DNA of 64,000 nucleotides from Rickettsia bellii RML369-C (GTDB taxonomy: Bacteria > Pseudomonadota > Alphaproteobacteria > Rickettsiales > Rickettsiaceae), in contig NC_007940.1 in assembly GCF_000012385.1 (NCBI RefSeq), positions 1,054,001 through 1,118,000 of the forward strand, read 5' to 3'. Below are positions 1 through 54,488 of this stretch, in pieces. Position 1 is the stretch's first letter. Each line of letters begins with the position of its first letter. Made by a program: the position numbers and the translations under genes. The notes beneath the pieces are model-generated. The model made no database searches. It worked only from the letters and a program-made list of their open reading frames with translations, and was not told the DNA's origin.

Positions 1-710
1 CTAATATGAAAACTACCTATATTTACGTGTCCTGTATATATCAATTTACCGGCAAAGAAAATACCAAAAGAAGTGGTTTTATCACCTATATCTATAATCA
101 ATGAACCGAGGTTTTTTTCATCATTTGTAAGGCAGCTAATCGCAGAAGCATAAATGGCTAGAGTAATATTTGTAACTTCAATATGGCATTTAGCAAAACA
201 CTGCACAATATTTGATAGCATATTTGACTCAGCTGCAATAATATGTAATTCACAGCCAAGCTCTCTTCCGTACATACCTATAGGGTTTTCAACCCTATTA
301 TTATCAAGAATAAACTCAAGAGGAAAGTAATGAATAATTTCTTGATTCTTAAATTTAAACTCCTGTAATGCTTTTTGTAAAAGCTTTTTTATATCTTGCT
401 TGGTTATAGTTGCTGTACTAATTTTAATAGTATAATTTATATAATAAGATTTAGTAGCAGCTCCTGATAGCGATAATATAACTTTTTTGATATTTTTATT
501 ACAATCTTTTTCTAACGCATAAATTGCTGAAACAATACTACTTTCAGCATTCTTTAAATCTGTTATAACCCCTGATTTTATGCCTTTAGAGTGATGTAAA
601 TTTTGACTTGCTACCTTGATCTCACCTTTTTTACTAATATAGGCAGCAATCGCAGCAATTTTACTACTGCCAAAATCAAGTGCTACAAAATTCGATATTT
701 TCTCTTTCAT
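1..710 (-). CDS. ftsA: Cell division protein FtsA (partial, N-terminal ~236 residues)
   Basis: Actin-like ATPase that anchors FtsZ to the membrane and recruits late divisome proteins. The frame opens with ATG at 708-710 and runs without a stop to the left window edge, so the C-terminal ~40% is missing. The start (MKEKISNFVALDFGSSKIAA) carries the phosphate-1 loop of the actin/Hsp70 fold (LDFGSSK), and a second phosphate motif, LIIDIGDKTTSF, lies near residue 205. The family usually has about 410 residues. It follows ddl and ftsQ on the same strand, the normal division-cluster order, but an IS110 element and repeats now separate it from ftsQ, so it probably needs its own or a read-through promoter. 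Identification is firm from context and motifs. Confidence 0.9.
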   Translation of the reverse strand, partial: MKEKISNFVALDFGSSKIAAIAAYISKKGEIKVASQNLHHSKGIKSGVITDLKNAESSIVSAIYALEKDCNKNIKKVILSLSGAATKSYYINYTIKISTATITKQDIKKLLQKALQEFKFKNQEIIHYFPLEFILDNNRVENPIGMYGRELGCELHIIAAESNMLSNIVQCFAKCHIEVTNITLAIYASAISCLTNDEKNLGSLIIDIGDKTTSFGIFFAGKLIYTGHVNIGSFHI

Positions 711-737: not shown

Positions 738-945
738 CGTCATTGCGAGAAGCATAGCGACGAAGCAATCTAGTTAAATGTCCTGAGCTTGCTTTCGCCC
801 TCTGCTATGCATCTCCTCGCAAGGCATTGCCTGCGTGGATCATTCTCTCCCCTGTCATCCCGTGATTTATGAACTAGAGCCAGTTAAAAATACTAATAAA
901 ATTAGTATTTTTTATTATTTTCTGGATCTAGTTCCCAAGCCACGG
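738..945. repeat. Nested palindromic elements, left half, interrupted by IS110
   Basis: An outer palindromic element opens with CGTCATTGCGAG at 738 and closes with CTCGCAATGACG at 2203. A second element of another class opens inside it at 853 (TGTCATCCCGTG) and reaches its far arm at 941-945 (CACGG), where the IS110 element is inserted. The rest of that arm (GATGACA) lies at 2150-2156. This is a three-layer nest of repeat in repeat with an IS inside. No gene is seen in the gap between ftsA and the IS. Confidence 0.75.
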
Positions 946-2149
946 TATTGTAAGAAAAGAAAGTGATATAATATAAGTTATAAATGTAATATAAACATTT
1001 ATAAGAGAGTGTTAATACCCTATATAATGATATAGGGTATTAAGCGGGCATAAGCGACCGTCACGGCATAGGTTTTATACGACCGGAGTCATCAAGGTAC
1101 TATAGCCCGACTCTCGAGAAGTTTGAATAGTTGGAAGGGATGCGATAAGCACGCCCGATTACAATCCTAAACAATATAAAATCTCGAGGTACATATGATA
1201 AAATATCACAAACATATAGGAATTGATATAGGAAAATATAATTTTGTAGTAGGAATAGAGGGCATAAAAGATACAAAAGAATATGAGAATACAAGTTCCG
1301 GTATATTTGAATTTATTAATGATAATAAGGATATTTTAGCAAACTCTCTAACTGTAGTTGAAACAACAGGCGGATATGAACTAGAGTTATTGTATAGCTT
1401 ATGTGAAAGAGGTTATGTAGTACATAGAGCAGATGCAAGAAAGGTAAAGAATTTTATCAGATCATATGGTAATAGTGCAAAAACAGATAAGTTAGATGCT
1501 AAAGCATTAGGATTATATGGTAAGGAGCGAGCAGATAAGCTTGAAGTATTTAAGCCTGAATCAAAACAAAATATACAATTATTTCGGTTAGTACAAAGAC
1601 GGAATGATTTAAAGCAAATGTTAGTTGCCGAAAAGAATAGATTACAACAAGCAAATACAGATAAGTTTGTTAAAAATAGCTGTATAAATATGATAGATGT
1701 TTTAAGTAATCAAATTACAGAGATTACTAATCAGGTAGAAGTGATTATATCATCAGATCAGCTGTTAAAAGCAAAGCATGAGATATTGAAAGAGATAAAT
1801 GGCATTGGTAATATAGTTGCTTTTGAGTTATTAATATTATTACCGGAGTTAGGGAAGTTAACAAGACGGCAGATTGCTTCTCTTGCAGGGCTTGCTCCAA
1901 AAGCTAATGATAGTGGTAAATATCAAGGATATAGAAAGGTAGGACATGGTAGAGCAGGAGTCAAGCCTATACTATTCCTTGCTGCTATGTCAGCCCGTAA
2001 TAGCAAGACTTCTGGTTTAAGACTCTTTTATGAGCGACTCATTAACAATGGTAAAAAAAAAATGGTCGCTCTTACCGCTTTAATGCGTAAAATTATTGTC
2101 ATCGCTAATGCTAAATTAAAATCTCTTCTTTTTAATTTAAAACATAGTT
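946..2149 (+). mobile_element. IS110-family insertion sequence, copy 1 (intact, 1204 bp)
   Basis: Boundaries come from comparison with the second copy (53283-54488, opposite strand) and with empty copies of the target repeat. The left end begins TATTGTAAG and the right end finishes ACATAGTT. Rejoining the flanks gives CACGG|GATGACA, the exact arm of the palindromic repeats seen elsewhere in the window, so no target duplication is visible. There are no terminal inverted repeats, as is usual for IS110. About 249 bp of non-coding DNA precede the transposase and none follows it, which is the IS110-group (not IS1111-group) layout. The element lies between ftsQ and ftsA and points against them. Confidence 0.85.
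1014..1188 (+). ncRNA. Putative bridge RNA of IS110 copy 1
   Basis: IS110-group elements encode a bridge RNA in the left non-coding end. Here a perfect 12-bp hairpin lies at 1014-1025/1030-1041. Next, a loop closed by CGGGC (1045-1049) and GCCCG (1105-1109) holds CACGG (1062-1066) and GTCATC (1088-1093), equal to the left target half and complementary to the right half (GATGAC). A second loop, closed by CTCGAGA (1113-1119) and TCTCGAG (1182-1188), holds ATAGTT (1127-1132), equal to the right end of the IS, and TTACAAT (1159-1165), complementary to the left end (947-953). A TATAAT hexamer lies upstream at 967-972. The pairings are seen directly. Expression and exact RNA ends are inference. Confidence 0.7.
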
Positions 2150-2151
2150 GA
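1195..2151 (+). CDS. IS110-family transposase (DEDD recombinase)
   Basis: 318-residue recombinase of the bridge-RNA-guided IS110 family. The N-terminal RuvC-like DEDD domain shows D11 (GIDIGKYNF), E56 (VVETTGGYE), D98 and D101 (KTDKLDAKAL). A coiled-coil-like middle (about 120-190) follows. The C-terminal Transposase_20 domain runs from about 196 (EINGIGNIVAFELL) to the end and holds the likely catalytic serine S240 in the segment APKANDSGKYQGYRKVGHG. The length is normal for the family. The stop codon TGA is completed by the target DNA: T at 2149 is the last IS base and GA at 2150-2151 belongs to the repeat arm. The ATG start at 1195 gives the full DEDD domain and is shared with copy 2. It appears intact and probably active. 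Confidence 0.93.
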   Translation: MIKYHKHIGIDIGKYNFVVGIEGIKDTKEYENTSSGIFEFINDNKDILANSLTVVETTGGYELELLYSLCERGYVVHRADARKVKNFIRSYGNSAKTDKLDAKALGLYGKERADKLEVFKPESKQNIQLFRLVQRRNDLKQMLVAEKNRLQQANTDKFVKNSCINMIDVLSNQITEITNQVEVIISSDQLLKAKHEILKEINGIGNIVAFELLILLPELGKLTRRQIASLAGLAPKANDSGKYQGYRKVGHGRAGVKPILFLAAMSARNSKTSGLRLFYERLINNGKKKMVALTALMRKIIVIANAKLKSLLFNLKHS

Positions 2152-2203
2152 TGACACCGAGGGCGTTTTTTGATCTACGCAACAACGCCTCCTCGCAATG
2201 ACG
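2150..2203. repeat. Right half of the palindromic elements split by IS110
   Basis: GATGACA at 2150-2156 completes the arm broken at 945, and CTCGCAATGACG closes the outer element at 2203, a few bases before the ftsQ stop. The segment is non-coding. Confidence 0.7.
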
Positions 2204-2210
2204 AGTCTAA

Positions 2211-3014
2211 TTAATACTTCTCAATATAGTACTTATTCTTGTCTCTCAAATCTAACTGTTTGTAGTTTTGATTAAATAGTTTATTTGCTTTATTGAGTGC
2301 GTCTATATATTTTAAGGCTTCTTCAAAATTCTTTGCCGGTAATTTAATATTTATTCCACCCTTAAGATTTAAATCCCATCTTCTATCCCCACATCTAATA
2401 GCAGATGAGGTTTTATTTATTAATGCCGGATATTTTTGTAGTTCATTTACTAGCTTGCTAGCATATATATTTGCCCCCTCCCCTACAACATGTAATAAAT
2501 GAGGAAATGGCTCTATGTTCTTACTGATTTCATAACCCTCTTCATCAATTAAGAAGAGTTGGTTATTGATCTGCCAAATAGCAATAGGTTCTCTTTCAAA
2601 CAGTTTTATATATATCGTACTTGGTAATCTTCTTGAAACATATACTTCCTTAATCCATCTATTATTCTTTAAATTATTCCTAATTTCATCTAAATTAAGA
2701 GCAAAAATAGAACTACCTTTTTTAGCATTTAAAACTTTTAATATTGTAGGTTCATCAACATTTTGTTGCCCCTCAATTATTACATTCTCAAGTTTAAAGC
2801 CAAGTTCTGTAGTTGTTTGATATATATTTGTTTTTAAATAGCTTTTTAACGAAGCAAAATATTTTGTGAAAGCAAACAAACATATAAAGATAATTAAAAC
2901 GATTTTAAGTATTAATATTGTTTTCTTATAGATTAGCCCTAACTTTCGATGCAATGAAATGTTATTGTTTTTTTTAGCTGTATTTTTTTTATTTGAGCTT
3001 GTTTTTTTTCTCAT
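2211..3014 (-). CDS. ftsQ: Cell division protein FtsQ
   Basis: Bitopic inner-membrane divisome protein linking early and late division proteins (FtsQLB complex). The 267 residues start with a basic, Lys/Asn-rich cytoplasmic tail (1-28), then one hydrophobic membrane segment at about 30-50. A POTRA domain begins near residue 74 ([13 protein letters not shown]) and is followed by the FtsQ beta domain ([20 protein letters not shown]). The length is normal. Its ATG overlaps the last codon of ddl by four bases (3011-3014), so the two are translationally coupled. It ends just before repeat sequence and the IS110 element that now separates it from ftsA. Confidence 0.9.
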
Positions 3015-3976
3015 GATTCAAAGCTTGCCGTCTTTAAAATTTCTTCAATTAAATTAACAAAATCTATACCATGATAAGCAGCTATTTCAGGAACTATAGA
3101 TAAAGGAGTCATACCAGGATGCGTATTTATTTCTAAAGCGTATAATTTATTTGTGCCGTCTTCTAAAATAAATTCAACTCTAGCCGCCCCCTTACAATTC
3201 ATTGTGTTATAAATCTTTTCCGACTCTTTAAGCAATTTATCATATATATCGGTAGGCAAAGGAGCAGGACATAAATGCTCGGCAAATCCTTCAGTATATT
3301 TAGTTTCATAATCATAGAAACGGTTTTTTAATAGCTTAATTTCTAAAGCTCCCAAGGCTTTGCCGTTTAATATTGCTACTTGTAATTCACGCCCTTTTAT
3401 ATATTTCTCTATTATTACCTCATCACCATAAGGAAAATCATAATTAGCAAAGTTAAAATCATCTTCCTCAAATATTACCTCAACACCAATACTTGATCCT
3501 TGCGTAAACGGCTTAATTACGTAAGGGCGTTTTATAGGATCAGTTTTAATATTATCACCTTTACTTATGACAATACTTTCTGCCATATTAATATTGTTAG
3601 TCAAAAACCAGCTTCTAGAATGTACTTTATCAAAAGCAAGGCTTGAGGCTAAAACCCCGCTATGAGTATAAGGAATTCGCATAATATTAAGAAGTCCAGG
3701 CAGGCAACCATCTTCACCATATGTGCCATGCAGACAATTAAAAACAATATCAGGCTTTATTTCATGCAGCTTAACAGTGATATCAGCTCCCATATCTATA
3801 AAAGTAACTTTATATCCTGCTTCTATTAAAGCTTTGCCTACTCCCTCTGCTGATATCAGCGATACTTCACGTTCAGCAGACATACCACCCGCTACTAATG
3901 CTATATGTTTCTTGCCTTTATCACTTAATATTTTAATTTCTGAGCTTTCAACCCAATGTGTTTGATATTTATGCAT
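3011..3976 (-). CDS. ddl: D-alanine--D-alanine ligase
   Basis: ATP-grasp ligase that makes the D-Ala-D-Ala dipeptide for peptidoglycan precursors in the cytosol. 321 residues. The N-terminal domain carries [16 protein letters not shown] (about 30-45), with the Glu and Ser that bind the first D-Ala, then [14 protein letters not shown] near 84. The ATP-grasp core shows [12 protein letters not shown] (about 150-161), and the C-terminal metal and phosphate-binding stretch reads [14 protein letters not shown] near 284-297. The last 20 or so residues are normal for the family. It lies between murB and ftsQ, overlaps ftsQ by four bases, and sits downstream of a 55-bp gap holding a palindrome. Function is clear. 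Confidence 0.95.
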
Positions 3977-34497: not shown

Positions 34498-34621
34498 GGG
34501 GTAAATGATCCACGCAAGCCAGCCTTAAGCAGGAATGACATACAAGGCATTTTTCGAGCCATGCAACAACCTAGGTACAAATCACGGCATGACATTAACC
34601 TATAACAATAAATAATTTGTA

Positions 34622-41926: not shown

Positions 41927-42109
41927 TTATTTTAGTTTTTCGATTTCTTTCTTAGTTAAACCTGTAAAGTCTATTATTTGATCTAAAGGCTTATTTTTTA
42001 CTAACATCTTTTTAGCTAAAATAATTTTTTCTTTTTTAATTCTAGCTCTTTCTTTTTCGATACCTTGTTGCTCCCAATGATGTGCTAAATTTCCATAATA
42101 TTTGCTATA
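41927..42109 (-). pseudogene. Duplicated C-terminal fragment of an Rpn-type nuclease
   Basis: A second copy of the tail of the neighbouring Rpn gene. The frame NLAHHWEQQGIEKERARIKK, then EKIILAKKMLV and KEIEKLK with a stop at 41927-41929, repeats the tail encoded at 42110-42300. It has no start or catalytic part. It is either a tandem duplication of the 3' end or what is left of a second gene. The rest of the 41748-41926 gap is AT-rich. Confidence 0.65.
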
Positions 42110-43005
42110 TTATTTTAACTTCTCAATCTCTTCTTTTTTTAACTTAGTATATTTTATAATTTTTTCTAGCGGCTCTTTGTTAGCCATCATTTCTTTAGCT
42201 ATAGTAATTTTTTCTTTTTAAATCTTTATTCTACTTCTAGCTCTTTCTTTTTCAATACCTTGTTGCTCCCAATGATGTGCTAAATTTCCCATAATATTTG
42301 CTCCTAATTCAGGATTTAAATGTGATTTAAGTATTTTTTCTAATTCTATTTTATCATTTTCTTTTATTCTAGTTGTACATAATCAACTCCACTATTAGAG
42401 TCAGCAAACTCTGGTAAAGTATTGGCTAGTTGTTTCCATCTTGGTAATAAATCATGCTCATTTATATATTTCATTAGAATTTGTAAAGGAGCAAGCCAAG
42501 GTCTTTCTTTTAATTGTTCATCAGGAATATCAAACAAGTTGATTAGTTGATAATCGTTGCTCCAAGTTTCTTTTGCCAGCTCGCTATTTTCAAATAAATC
42601 CCACAAGTTTAAAGGAGCAGTATATTTTTTATGATCATTTGAATATACTAACGGATATATAAAAGGAAACTTTTTAGAATCGGGATGCGAATTTAAGTGT
42701 CTTTCAGCAATATTTAACATATATTTAAACAGGCGAAAAGCCATAAGAGGGTCAGAACTACTTTGATGTTCACACAAAATATATATATAACCATCTCTAT
42801 TATTAATTTTAGCAGAATATAAAACATCTGTAATAGTTTCTTTTAAGCTTGGCTCTATAAAACTATCATTTTCCAATTTCAAAGTAGAGGGCAAGAATAA
42901 AACTTTTATTTCAGTTGGTAAATATTCCTCAAAGAATTCTTTAGCTATTAATGGATTTGCTAAAGCTTGCTGAAAAAACTTATCATGCTCTTTTCTATCT
43001 GACAT
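42110..43005 (-). pseudogene. Rpn-family recombination-promoting nuclease/putative transposase, frameshifted
   Basis: The open part (42364-43005, 213 residues) starts MSDRKEHDKFFQQALANPLI and runs through the PD-(D/E)XK-like core: ETITDVLYSAKINN, then YIYILCEHQSSSDPLMAFRL (Glu and Gln in the E-x-Q position) and YPLVYSNDHKKYTAPLNLWD. It stops at 42364. One base out of phase, the frame goes on as ENDKIELEKILKSHLNPEL, then GNLAHHWEQQGIEKERAR, with a further in-frame stop before the end. So the C-terminal quarter is cut off. The protein family (about 290-300 residues) promotes RecA-independent recombination. Probably inactive, though the catalytic domain could still be made. Confidence 0.75.
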
Positions 43006-53220: not shown

Positions 53221-53280
53221 AAAATTCCCGTTATTGCGAGGAGGCATTGTTGCGTGGATCGAAAAGCACTTTCAATGTCA

Positions 53281-54236
53281 TCAACTATGTTTTAAATTAA
53301 AAAGAAGAGATTTTAATTTAGCATTAGCGATGACAATAATTTTACGCATTAAAGCGGTAAGAGCGACCATTTTCTTTTTACCATTGTTAATGAGTCGCTC
53401 ATAAAAGAGTCTTAAACCAGAAGTCTTGCTATTACGGGCTGACATAGCAGCAAGGAATAGTATAGCTTGACTCCTGCTCTACCATGTCCTACCTTTCTAT
53501 ATCCTTGATATTTACCACTATCATTAGCTTTTGGAGCAAGCCCTGCAAGAGAAGCAATCTGCCGTCTTGTTAACTTCCCTAACTCCGGTAATAATATTAA
53601 TAACTCAAAAGCAACTATATTACCAATGCCATTTATCTCTTTCAATATCTCATGCTTTGCTTTTAACAGCTGATCTGATGATATAATCACTTCTACCTGA
53701 TTAGTAATCTCTGTAATTTGATTACTTAAAACATCTATCATATTTATACAGCTATTTTTAACAAACTTATCTGTATTTGCTTGTTGTAATCTATTCTTTT
53801 CGGCAACTAACATTTGCTTTAAATCATTCCGTCTTTGTACTAACCGAAATAATTGTATATTTTGTTTTGATTCAGGCTTAAATACTTCAAGCTTATCTGC
53901 TCGCTCCTTACCATATAATCCTAATGCTTTAGCATCTAACTTATCTGTTTTTGCACTATTACCATATGATCTGATAAAATTCTTTACCTTTCTTGCATCT
54001 GCTCTATGTACTACATAACCTCTTTCACATAAGCTATACAATAACTCTAGTTCATATCCGCCTGTTGTTTCAACTACAGTTAGAGAGTTTGCTAAAATAT
54101 CCTTATTATCATTAATAAATTCAAATATACCGAAACTTGTATTCTCATATTCTTTTGTATCTTTTATGCCCTCTATTCCTACTACAAAATTATATTTTCC
54201 TATATCAATTCCTATATGTTTGTGATATTTTATCAT
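53281..54236 (-). pseudogene. IS110-family transposase, frameshifted (copy 2)
   Basis: Nearly identical to the intact transposase at 1195-2151. Differences include Ser34 to Phe (NTSFGIF) and a missing C in the run GTCAAGCCTATAC (copy 2 has AAGCTATAC), which shifts the frame at about residue 254 and ends it 274 residues in, with an unrelated tail (LYYSLLLCQPVIARLLV). The DEDD residues and S240 are before the break, but the last ~60 residues are lost. The element would need the other copy's protein to move. The true end would again be the TGA shared with the target DNA (53281-53283). Confidence 0.92.
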
Positions 54237-54488
54237 ATGTACCTCGAGATTTTATATTGTTTAGGATTGTAATCGGGCGTGCTTATCGCATCCCTTCCAA
54301 CTATTCAAACTTCTCGAGAGTCGGGCTATAGTACCTTGATGACTCCGGTCGTATAAAACCTACTATACCGTGACGGTCGCTTATGCCCGCTTAATACCCT
54401 ATATCATTATATAGGGTATTAACACTCTCTTATAAATGTTTATATTACATTTATAACTTATATTATATCACTTTCTTTTCTTACAATA
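53283..54488 (-). mobile_element. IS110-family insertion sequence, copy 2 (1206 bp, defective)
   Basis: Same ends as copy 1 on the opposite strand (right end AACTATG at 53283, left end CTTACAATA up to 54488). The flanks rejoin to TACGG|GATGACA, the same target arm as copy 1 but with one outer base changed. Compared with copy 1 it has one base missing in the transposase and three extra in the RNA region, giving the two-base length difference. It lies in repeat DNA between scoB and mnhD, interrupting no gene. Confidence 0.85.
54243..54420 (-). ncRNA. Putative bridge RNA of IS110 copy 2
   Basis: Same plan as the RNA at 1014-1188. The 12-bp hairpin and the guides CACGG (as CCGTG, 54368-54372), GTCATC (as GATGAC, 54338-54343), ATAGTT and TTACAAT are all kept, while the loop between the target guides has three extra bases and one substitution beside the left guide (CACGGT for CACGGC). 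If the transposase frame of this copy is dead, this RNA could still be used by the other copy's protein. Confidence 0.65.

Follow-up and report, generated by a model that had tools for sequence, protein, structure and literature searches.

An IS110-family insertion sequence of Rickettsia bellii and a putative bridge RNA that matches its target in a palindromic repeat arm

Does an insertion sequence of Rickettsia bellii carry, in its own noncoding RNA region, the address of the genomic repeat into which it inserts? The question is raised by a locus near the start of a 64,000-nucleotide stretch of DNA (“the window”), which lies at positions 1,054,001–1,118,000 in one contig with a length of 1,522,076 bases. 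A first-pass annotation of the window had described an IS110 element whose left end encodes two loops, one of them spelling out an abundant palindromic repeat. Here, we describe the element, the sites that it occupies, and the relatives with which it can be compared. We are confident that it belongs to the IS621-type members of the IS110 family, with a predicted bridge RNA region located 5′ of the recombinase gene. Its architecture, the number of its copies, their preference among sites, the conserved fold, and the joint change of target guides and flanks can all be read from sequence, and they place the target in a different version of the repeat arm than the one first proposed.

The element, its copies, and its gene

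The unit listed for copy 1 in Table 1 is common to 25 near-full-length copies, which are 99–100% identical, and outside it the flanks diverge. The boundaries first drawn, 946–2149, take in a base of host flank; this base, 946, directly precedes the core, and the 25 scorable copies have either T (17) or C (8) there. Scoring of 40 of the 88 first-look candidates gave 27 copies in the genome, of which 25 are approximately full length and 2 are truncated; 12 of the 27 contain an uninterrupted 318-residue match. A search with the donor-guide motif, which is independent of the copy search, found 26 places in the genome, equal to the number of left ends. Two copies lie in the window. Direct reading gives ATAGTTG (2144–2150) as the right end of the element and (AT)TGTAAG, from 947 or 949, as its left end.

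Copy 1 lies within a cell-division cluster, between an FtsA-like gene (1–710, minus strand) that is cut by the start of the window and an FtsQ-like gene (2211–3014, minus strand), after which comes a D-Ala-D-Ala ligase gene (3011–3976, minus strand). Elsewhere in the window, 41927–42289 contains two direct repeats, each in two copies: the copies of the first are 114 nt long and 71% alike, and those of the second are 61 nt long and 95% alike.

Assignment to the IS110 family, as first annotated, is borne out by several lines of evidence. The recombinase matches DEDD_Tnp_IS110 (E 1.4e-18) and Transposase_20 (E 1.2e-12), both exceeding the cut-off, and scores 158.4 against the NCBIfam model NF033542, “IS110 family RNA-guided transposase,” for which the cut-off is 140. 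A profile built from 7 relatives matches the solved transposases of ISCro4 (E 1.3e-39) and IS621 (E 5e-39). Residues D11, E56, D98, D101, and S240 are invariant among 7 recombinase sequences, and the same residues are aligned in the ISCro4 chain. For the members of this IS110 D/E/D/D-plus-serine set other than the counterparts of IS621 D102 and S241, we take the roles to be catalytic. The roles of D102 and S241 in IS621 are described in PMC11208158. The stop codon of the gene, TGA (2149–2151), is completed by the A of the core, such that the gene ends at the recombination point.

Table 1. Features of the element and its target, in positions of the window
Feature	Position	Strand	Basis or remark
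Left target half (LT) CCACGGT, host flank	940..946	+	Junction survey, direct reading
Core dinucleotide AT, left copy	947..948	+	AT at both junctions and within the 31 empty CACGGYATGAC sites
IS110-family element, copy 1, with right core copy	949..2152	+	Alternative count 947–2150
TATAAT, −10 box	967..972	+	TTG (2148–2150), AT, and T949 would give TTGATT-17-TATAAT only in the circular form
A+T-rich inverted repeat, between −10 box and 5′ stem-loop	978..1005	+	z −4.5 for 976–1006
5′ stem-loop of putative bridge RNA	1012..1043	+	Folding, z −4.9 for 1010–1043
Target-binding loop and closing stem	1044..1110	+	Covariation, 25 RNA regions (2 from this genome, 23 from relatives)
Left target guide UCACGGCAU	1061..1069	+	UCACGGUAU in 18 of 26 copies, with a loop 3 nt longer
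Right target guide GUCAU, complementary to AT plus GAC	1088..1092	+	Junctions, guide–flank comparison, direct reading
Putative handshake guide CA, complementary to donor TG before the core	1093..1094	+	IS621 rule (PMC11208158)
Donor-binding loop and closing stem	1112..1189	+	Folding, covariation
Left donor guide AUAGUUG, equal to the element right end 2144–2150	1127..1133	+	Unchanged in 25/25 RNA regions
Right donor guide UUACAAU, complementary to left-end ATTGTAA	1159..1165	+	Unchanged in 23/25; L153 and L189 differ by one base
Recombinase ORF, 318 aa, DEDD and Tnp domains	1195..2151	+	Domain search, direct reading
Core dinucleotide AT, right copy	2151..2152	+	Direct reading
Right target half GAC, host flank	2153..2155	+	25/26 right junctions ATGAC
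Sole empty true-type site in the window, CACGGCATGAC	34583..34593	+	Site scan
Copy 2 in the window (L019)	53280..54485	−	Flanks CTACGGT-AT and AT-GAC

Occupied sites in the repeat arm

Junctions were read for all 27 copies, i.e., 26 left and 26 right ends, with 25 left ends being scorable (L020 lacks 2 nt). All 25 scorable left junctions read C[C/T]ACGG[T/C]AT followed by TGTAAG, 24 with CCACGG and one (L019) with CTACGG. On the right, ATAGTTG/AT/GAC is found at 25 of 26 junctions; L025 has ATTAA after ATAGTTG. The reading that fits the left and right junctions together is one with a core AT at both ends; the target, as read from the sequence, is CCACGG[Y]-AT-GAC. Rejoining the flanks with the AT core gives CCACGGTATGAC, not CACGGGATGAC.

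The programmed target had first been taken to be the common palindrome, CACGG/GATGAC. That version draws on two matches: the right guide together with C1093 is complementary to GATGAC, and the flanks joined without 946–948 give CACGGGATGAC. Omission of 946–948 is how the proposed target arose, and the core AT was missed. Moreover, CACGGGATGAC, with its G before the AT, holds none of the 25 scorable copies, even though the genome offers 230 such uninterrupted sites. The dinucleotide CA follows the right target guide in 22 of 25 aligned RNA regions, whatever the target, and matches the donor TG. Since this CA fits the donor end, the GTCATC–GATGAC match would describe the product junction rather than the target, and C1093 would belong with the donor end rather than with the target guide. 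We find it hardly credible that the common palindrome is the programmed target.

The division between used and unused arms can be counted. CACGGNATGAC occurs uninterrupted 272 times in the genome, 31 times with Y (C or T) and 241 times with a purine (230 G, 11 A). Y sites comprise 25 occupied and 31 empty ones, whereas 0 of the 241 purine sites is used (Fisher p 3.7e-21, in a test on sites whose copies are not necessarily independent events). As every one of the 25 scorable insertions falls in a Y site, the common palindrome CACGGGATGAC is unused. It is as abundant as the first-pass annotation had stated: more than ten occurrences were claimed for the window, and 15 exact ones were found, or 20 with up to one mismatch versus 0.12 expected. 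The true target type, CACGGYATGAC, is empty at 31 places in the genome and one in the window. That the target lies inside a Rickettsia repeat arm is supported; that the element aims at the abundant palindrome is not, the arms that are used being the rarer CACGGYATGAC version, mostly with a broken partner. The genome's other copies lie at guide-matching sites, so that the case named as refuting in the first-pass annotation, copies at sites unrelated to the guides, was not found.

The host repeat, as seen in a repeat scan of the window, is palindromic and multicopy, with an arm that ends in ATGAC; PMC3767692 presents ATGAC as characteristic of RPE-4, -6, and -7. The surroundings of occupied sites differ from those of other sites in two respects. 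An upstream repeat arm, CTAGTT, is present at 21 of 26 occupied sites, versus 3 of 31 empty Y sites and 17 of 63 sampled G sites. An intact palindromic partner arm within the upstream 26 bases is present at 1 of 26 occupied sites (L020 being scored with its lost bases filled in), versus 18 of 31 empty Y sites (p 1.1e-5); it is also present at 35 of 63 sampled G sites. The 63 sampled G sites are those of the 230 in the genome whose contexts lie near element copies and Y sites. Five occupied sites are without the CTAGTT arm: L002, which has an intact palindrome, and L017, L019, L022, and L026, which lie in another context and share little with the other sites besides the guide-matching stretch. 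Either intact hairpins resist insertion, or one subfamily of the repeat has been hit. There may be a second layer in the Rickettsia genome, in which intact palindromes escape insertion.

The putative bridge RNA and its guides across relatives

Direct reading and folding agree with the outline first given for the noncoding left end, i.e., a hairpin, a loop with CACGG (1062–1066) and GTCATC (1088–1093), and a second loop with ATAGTT(G) and TTACAAT that specifies the ends of the element. The 185-nt RNA region has a fold that beats 200/200 dinucleotide shuffles (z −3.98). Separate target and donor loops had been proposed, with covariation as a check; in an alignment of 25 regions, 97.6% of cells are paired at 30 named pairs, and 11 of the 30 show compensatory change. 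When pair partners are slid along the alignment, 30–46% are paired, with 1–5 pairs showing two-sided change. In the fold test, four of five measures lie above 500/500 shuffles and the number of pair types does not (177/500 are as high); the structure, being derived from the same alignment (with 4 donor-guide pairs removed), is somewhat favored by this test. Rfam returned no match in 900–2300 up to E 1.

The best −35/−10 spacing is 17 in 25/25 left ends (2 from this genome, 23 from relatives), judged by consensus match only. In the integrated element, the −35 hexamer is poor (0–2 of 6), versus 4 of 6 when the ends join; the joined −35 assumes TTG plus A at the right end, which is not seen for L158, L159, L189, L213, and L218. 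The −10 boxes of four rows score ≤4 of 6. A promoter scan of 900–1250 returned no plus-strand site and four minus-strand sites. The empty plus-strand result fits a promoter at the circle junction but is not proof of one.

We refer to the guides of the first loop as “target guides” and to those of the second as “donor guides.” The donor guides match the element's own ends in full (ATAGTTG, 7/7 bases; TTACAAT, 7/7 bases). The target guides match the insertion site, core included, with exceptions. Target position 1 is C facing a guide U, a wobble pair. At base 7, copies with guide C have 2 C and 6 T sites and copies with guide U have 6 C and 11 T sites, such that the idea that the guide version (C/U) follows the target base was rejected (Fisher p 1); six of eight version-A copies have a C:A mismatch at this base. 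The donor-loop handshake CC (1166–1167) would suit G at position 7, a base that is never used. The right target guide reads GUCAC in L014 and L015, and one base directly after it is missing in L005 and L010; these four copies may be worn or retargeted.

Relatives of the element provide guides that differ from one another. They come from genomes of the same order, many of them multicopy (40 copies fetched), and from 9 of 58 loci in named records, which include Legionella, Rickettsiales and other alphaproteobacterial MAGs, and a Coxiella endosymbiont; another 3 of the 58 loci were inspected for donor ends, the rest being truncated or more distant. The recombinases compared are 45–62% identical. 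Multicopy elements of ~30–38% identity (such as G005, G084, G088, and G223) were kept apart from the comparison. The test covered 79 of 82 copies (L020, L027, and L140 were dropped) with 27 guide types, in a fixed register and with core positions excluded; the R. bellii copies were merged under their commonest guide, and L218, L227, L228, L230, L248, L014, L017, L111, L158, and L189 are in the sample. On the left, guide and flank agree at 4.82 of 7 positions over 27 types versus 2.08 when permuted; on the right, they agree at 3.57 of 5 over 22 types versus 1.53. Neither value was reached in any of 100,000 permutations (0/100,000 on each side), related guide types being not fully independent in this test. 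On the left, the own guide is best or tied for 21 of the 27 types; on the right, it is so for 16 of the 22. Left fit to the own guide is poor for L111 and L230 (1/7), L189 (3/7), and the UAAGACGGU type (mean 3.57/7), and is 4/7 for L152, L155, L163, and L228; right fit is poor for L228 (0/5) and the AAAACCAAU type (1.5/5).

The first-pass annotation had expected guides and ends to change together among related elements. This holds for the target guides, which follow the flanks; the donor guides and the ends show little variation within the clade and so offer little to compare. Indeed, target guides evolve far faster than the nearly constant donor guides, although the constancy is partly by construction, with the ends of relatives located via TTGT[A/G]A and CATAGTTG. 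The second loop of three more distant relatives repeats a 7- or 8-nt stretch from around the right-end core, with a different sequence; chance matches of equal length occur in two of the three, making this a weak recurrence. No Rickettsia plasmid relative was among the matches listed (40 of 2156 records).

Several observations were made beside this comparison. Two genomes of the same genus, G005 (3 copies) and G006 (2 copies), hold remoter IS110 relatives with 35–38% identity and in-frame stops. In L218 (1260–2981 in G020, same genus), a left end and RNA region with guide UGUGAGCGU and flank AGTGAGCGT are followed, soon after its start codon, by a reverse transcriptase ORF (PF00078), which looks like a group II intron within the element. 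By eye, the left flanks of L163 and L164 lie at the ends of G+C-rich palindromes; palindromic repeats may, on the strength of these two flanks, recur as targets in the clade.

Within some genomes, sibling elements carry different target guides. In G065, the sites in use differ between elements whose loops differ, and, of five copies with guide ACCAACUGU, three sit at sites that match a sibling guide (AAAAAAAGU/UUUCCAU, read after a shift by one base) better on the left and right alike. Of the 15 copies with guide UAAGACGGU in G087, 7 have a left flank that favors the sibling guide AAAGGAAAU and 5 one that favors their own, with 3 ties; on the right, four of those 7 also point to the sibling, one points to its own guide, and two point to neither. 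The sibling itself, L228, fits its own site poorly. G092 has five rows with a left score, in which the own guide is better in 3 and tied in 1, while L230 scores 2 for another guide versus 1 for its own, the latter shifted by one base. In G093, one guide is found in all 11 places. The clade shares one donor address and differs in target guides, so siblings could form a common pool, in which the bridge RNA of one element sends the circle of another to its own targets; we hold this reading tentatively, as possible but somewhat short of probable. A serious alternative for the pattern in G065 and G087 is that the entire element body was replaced by gene conversion. In G087, the body departs from the sibling's at the tenth base of the left end and beyond (row L241 reads a neighboring element in this comparison), so gene conversion would need to reach within 9 nt of that end.

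Could the occupied sites be explained without an RNA that reads them? The element might have spread by homologous recombination between repeats, or repeat and element might have been copied together, in which case the flank would simply be inherited. The shared CTAGTT arm of most occupied sites, described above, is what such spread would leave behind, as is the left flank common to L017 and L026. By contrast, the right flanks are widely different, the four sites in another upstream context have little in common with the rest beyond the stretch matched by the guides, L002 retains an intact palindrome, and the position of the junction is identical, to the base, in 25 of 26 left ends and in all 26 right ends. 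We consider spread of this kind quite improbable. Alternatively, the recombinase protein itself might read the repeat arm, with the likeness between loop and flank being a coincidence or a relic of capture. The copies in this genome, given their near-identity at the DNA level, cannot alone separate protein from RNA as the reader, and to that extent they are compatible with a reading protein. Three lines of evidence count against it: flanks change with the loop among the relatives compared, different loops go with different sites within the single genome G065, and the solved IS621 complexes reported in PMC11208158 have RNA as the reader. Reading by the protein is, in our judgment, very improbable, and guidance by the RNA is the explanation that we carry forward.

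Proposed mechanism and relation to known systems

The steps that we infer, i.e., expression of the RNA, formation of a circle, pairing, and catalysis, would run as follows. A noncoding RNA of ~180 nt, encoded ahead of the recombinase gene, would act as a bridge RNA. It would probably be expressed mainly from the TTGATT-17-TATAAT promoter that is made when the circle ends join. Its first loop would pair with CCACGG[Y]-AT-GAC, the left guide UCACGG(C/U)AU with the bottom strand and the right guide GUCAU with the top strand, and its second loop would pair with ATAGTTG-AT-TGTAA, the sequence created where the ends of the excised circle meet. The recombinase would then join donor and target DNAs at their common AT. 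The target would be the end of an arm of a Rickettsia palindromic repeat, in the CACGGYATGAC version only.

If this mechanism holds, the element is a natural, multicopy case of RNA-specified insertion at the nucleotide level in an obligate intracellular genus, in which one base of an 11-base site divides used from unused repeat arms. The comparison places putative bridge-RNA elements in the order Rickettsiales and in other bacteria, with many target guides and nearly one donor address; the near constancy of that address makes trans-guidance between siblings directly testable. The element also adds an example with an AT core and a 5-nt right guide to IS621.

Novelty had been claimed for a bridge-RNA system of this kind in Rickettsia. 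Among the open-licence papers listed for Rickettsia, Wolbachia, or Rickettsiales that concern IS110 together with bridge RNA or palindromes, we found no report of the element; IS110 elements that target repeats, on the other hand, are known (PMC1525189). A relation to ISRpe1 had also been put forward for testing, and it is not supported. ISRpe1, an insertion sequence of Rickettsia peacockii, shares the genus and is likewise multicopy (PMC2791219), but it is named as a member of the IS481 family in PMC13400510 and is set apart from the present IS110 element by family assignment.

The closest comparison is with IS621 of E. coli. In both, the 5′ RNA region comprises a stem-loop, a target loop, and a donor loop, the guides overlap the dinucleotide core, and the handshake has the same position, as described for IS621 in PMC11208160 and PMC11208158. 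IS621 has its promoter at the circle junction, a position that is a prediction for the present element, and both elements insert naturally into palindromic repeats (PMC11208160, PMC11208158, PMC1525189). They differ in the core (AT here, CT in IS621), in the length of the right target guide (5 nt here, 4 nt in IS621), in the right donor guide, which here makes a contiguous match, unlike that of IS621, and in the target, which here is a Rickettsia repeat arm; the likeness between the recombinases is a profile match.

IS1111-type elements with seekRNAs, such as ISEc11 and ISPa11, share with this element a DEDD recombinase and RNA-guided target choice (PMC11187229). Their noncoding region is described in that paper as lying downstream of the gene. 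Here, the recombinase stop codon overlaps the right core, and hence there is no downstream noncoding region; membership of the IS1111 group, as judged by a long region of this kind, was rejected.

Lastly, ISPa11, ISPpu9, ISPpu10, and ISRm19 are, like this element, multicopy IS110 elements at palindromic repeats, and the survey that describes them found no IS elements in Rickettsia conorii (PMC1525189). Compared with such REP-targeting elements, the present one differs in its host and its repeat, and 25 of the 26 arms that it occupies are without an intact partner. It appears to take a mechanism already known from bacteria into a host and a target that are new for it, rather than to represent a new kind of system.
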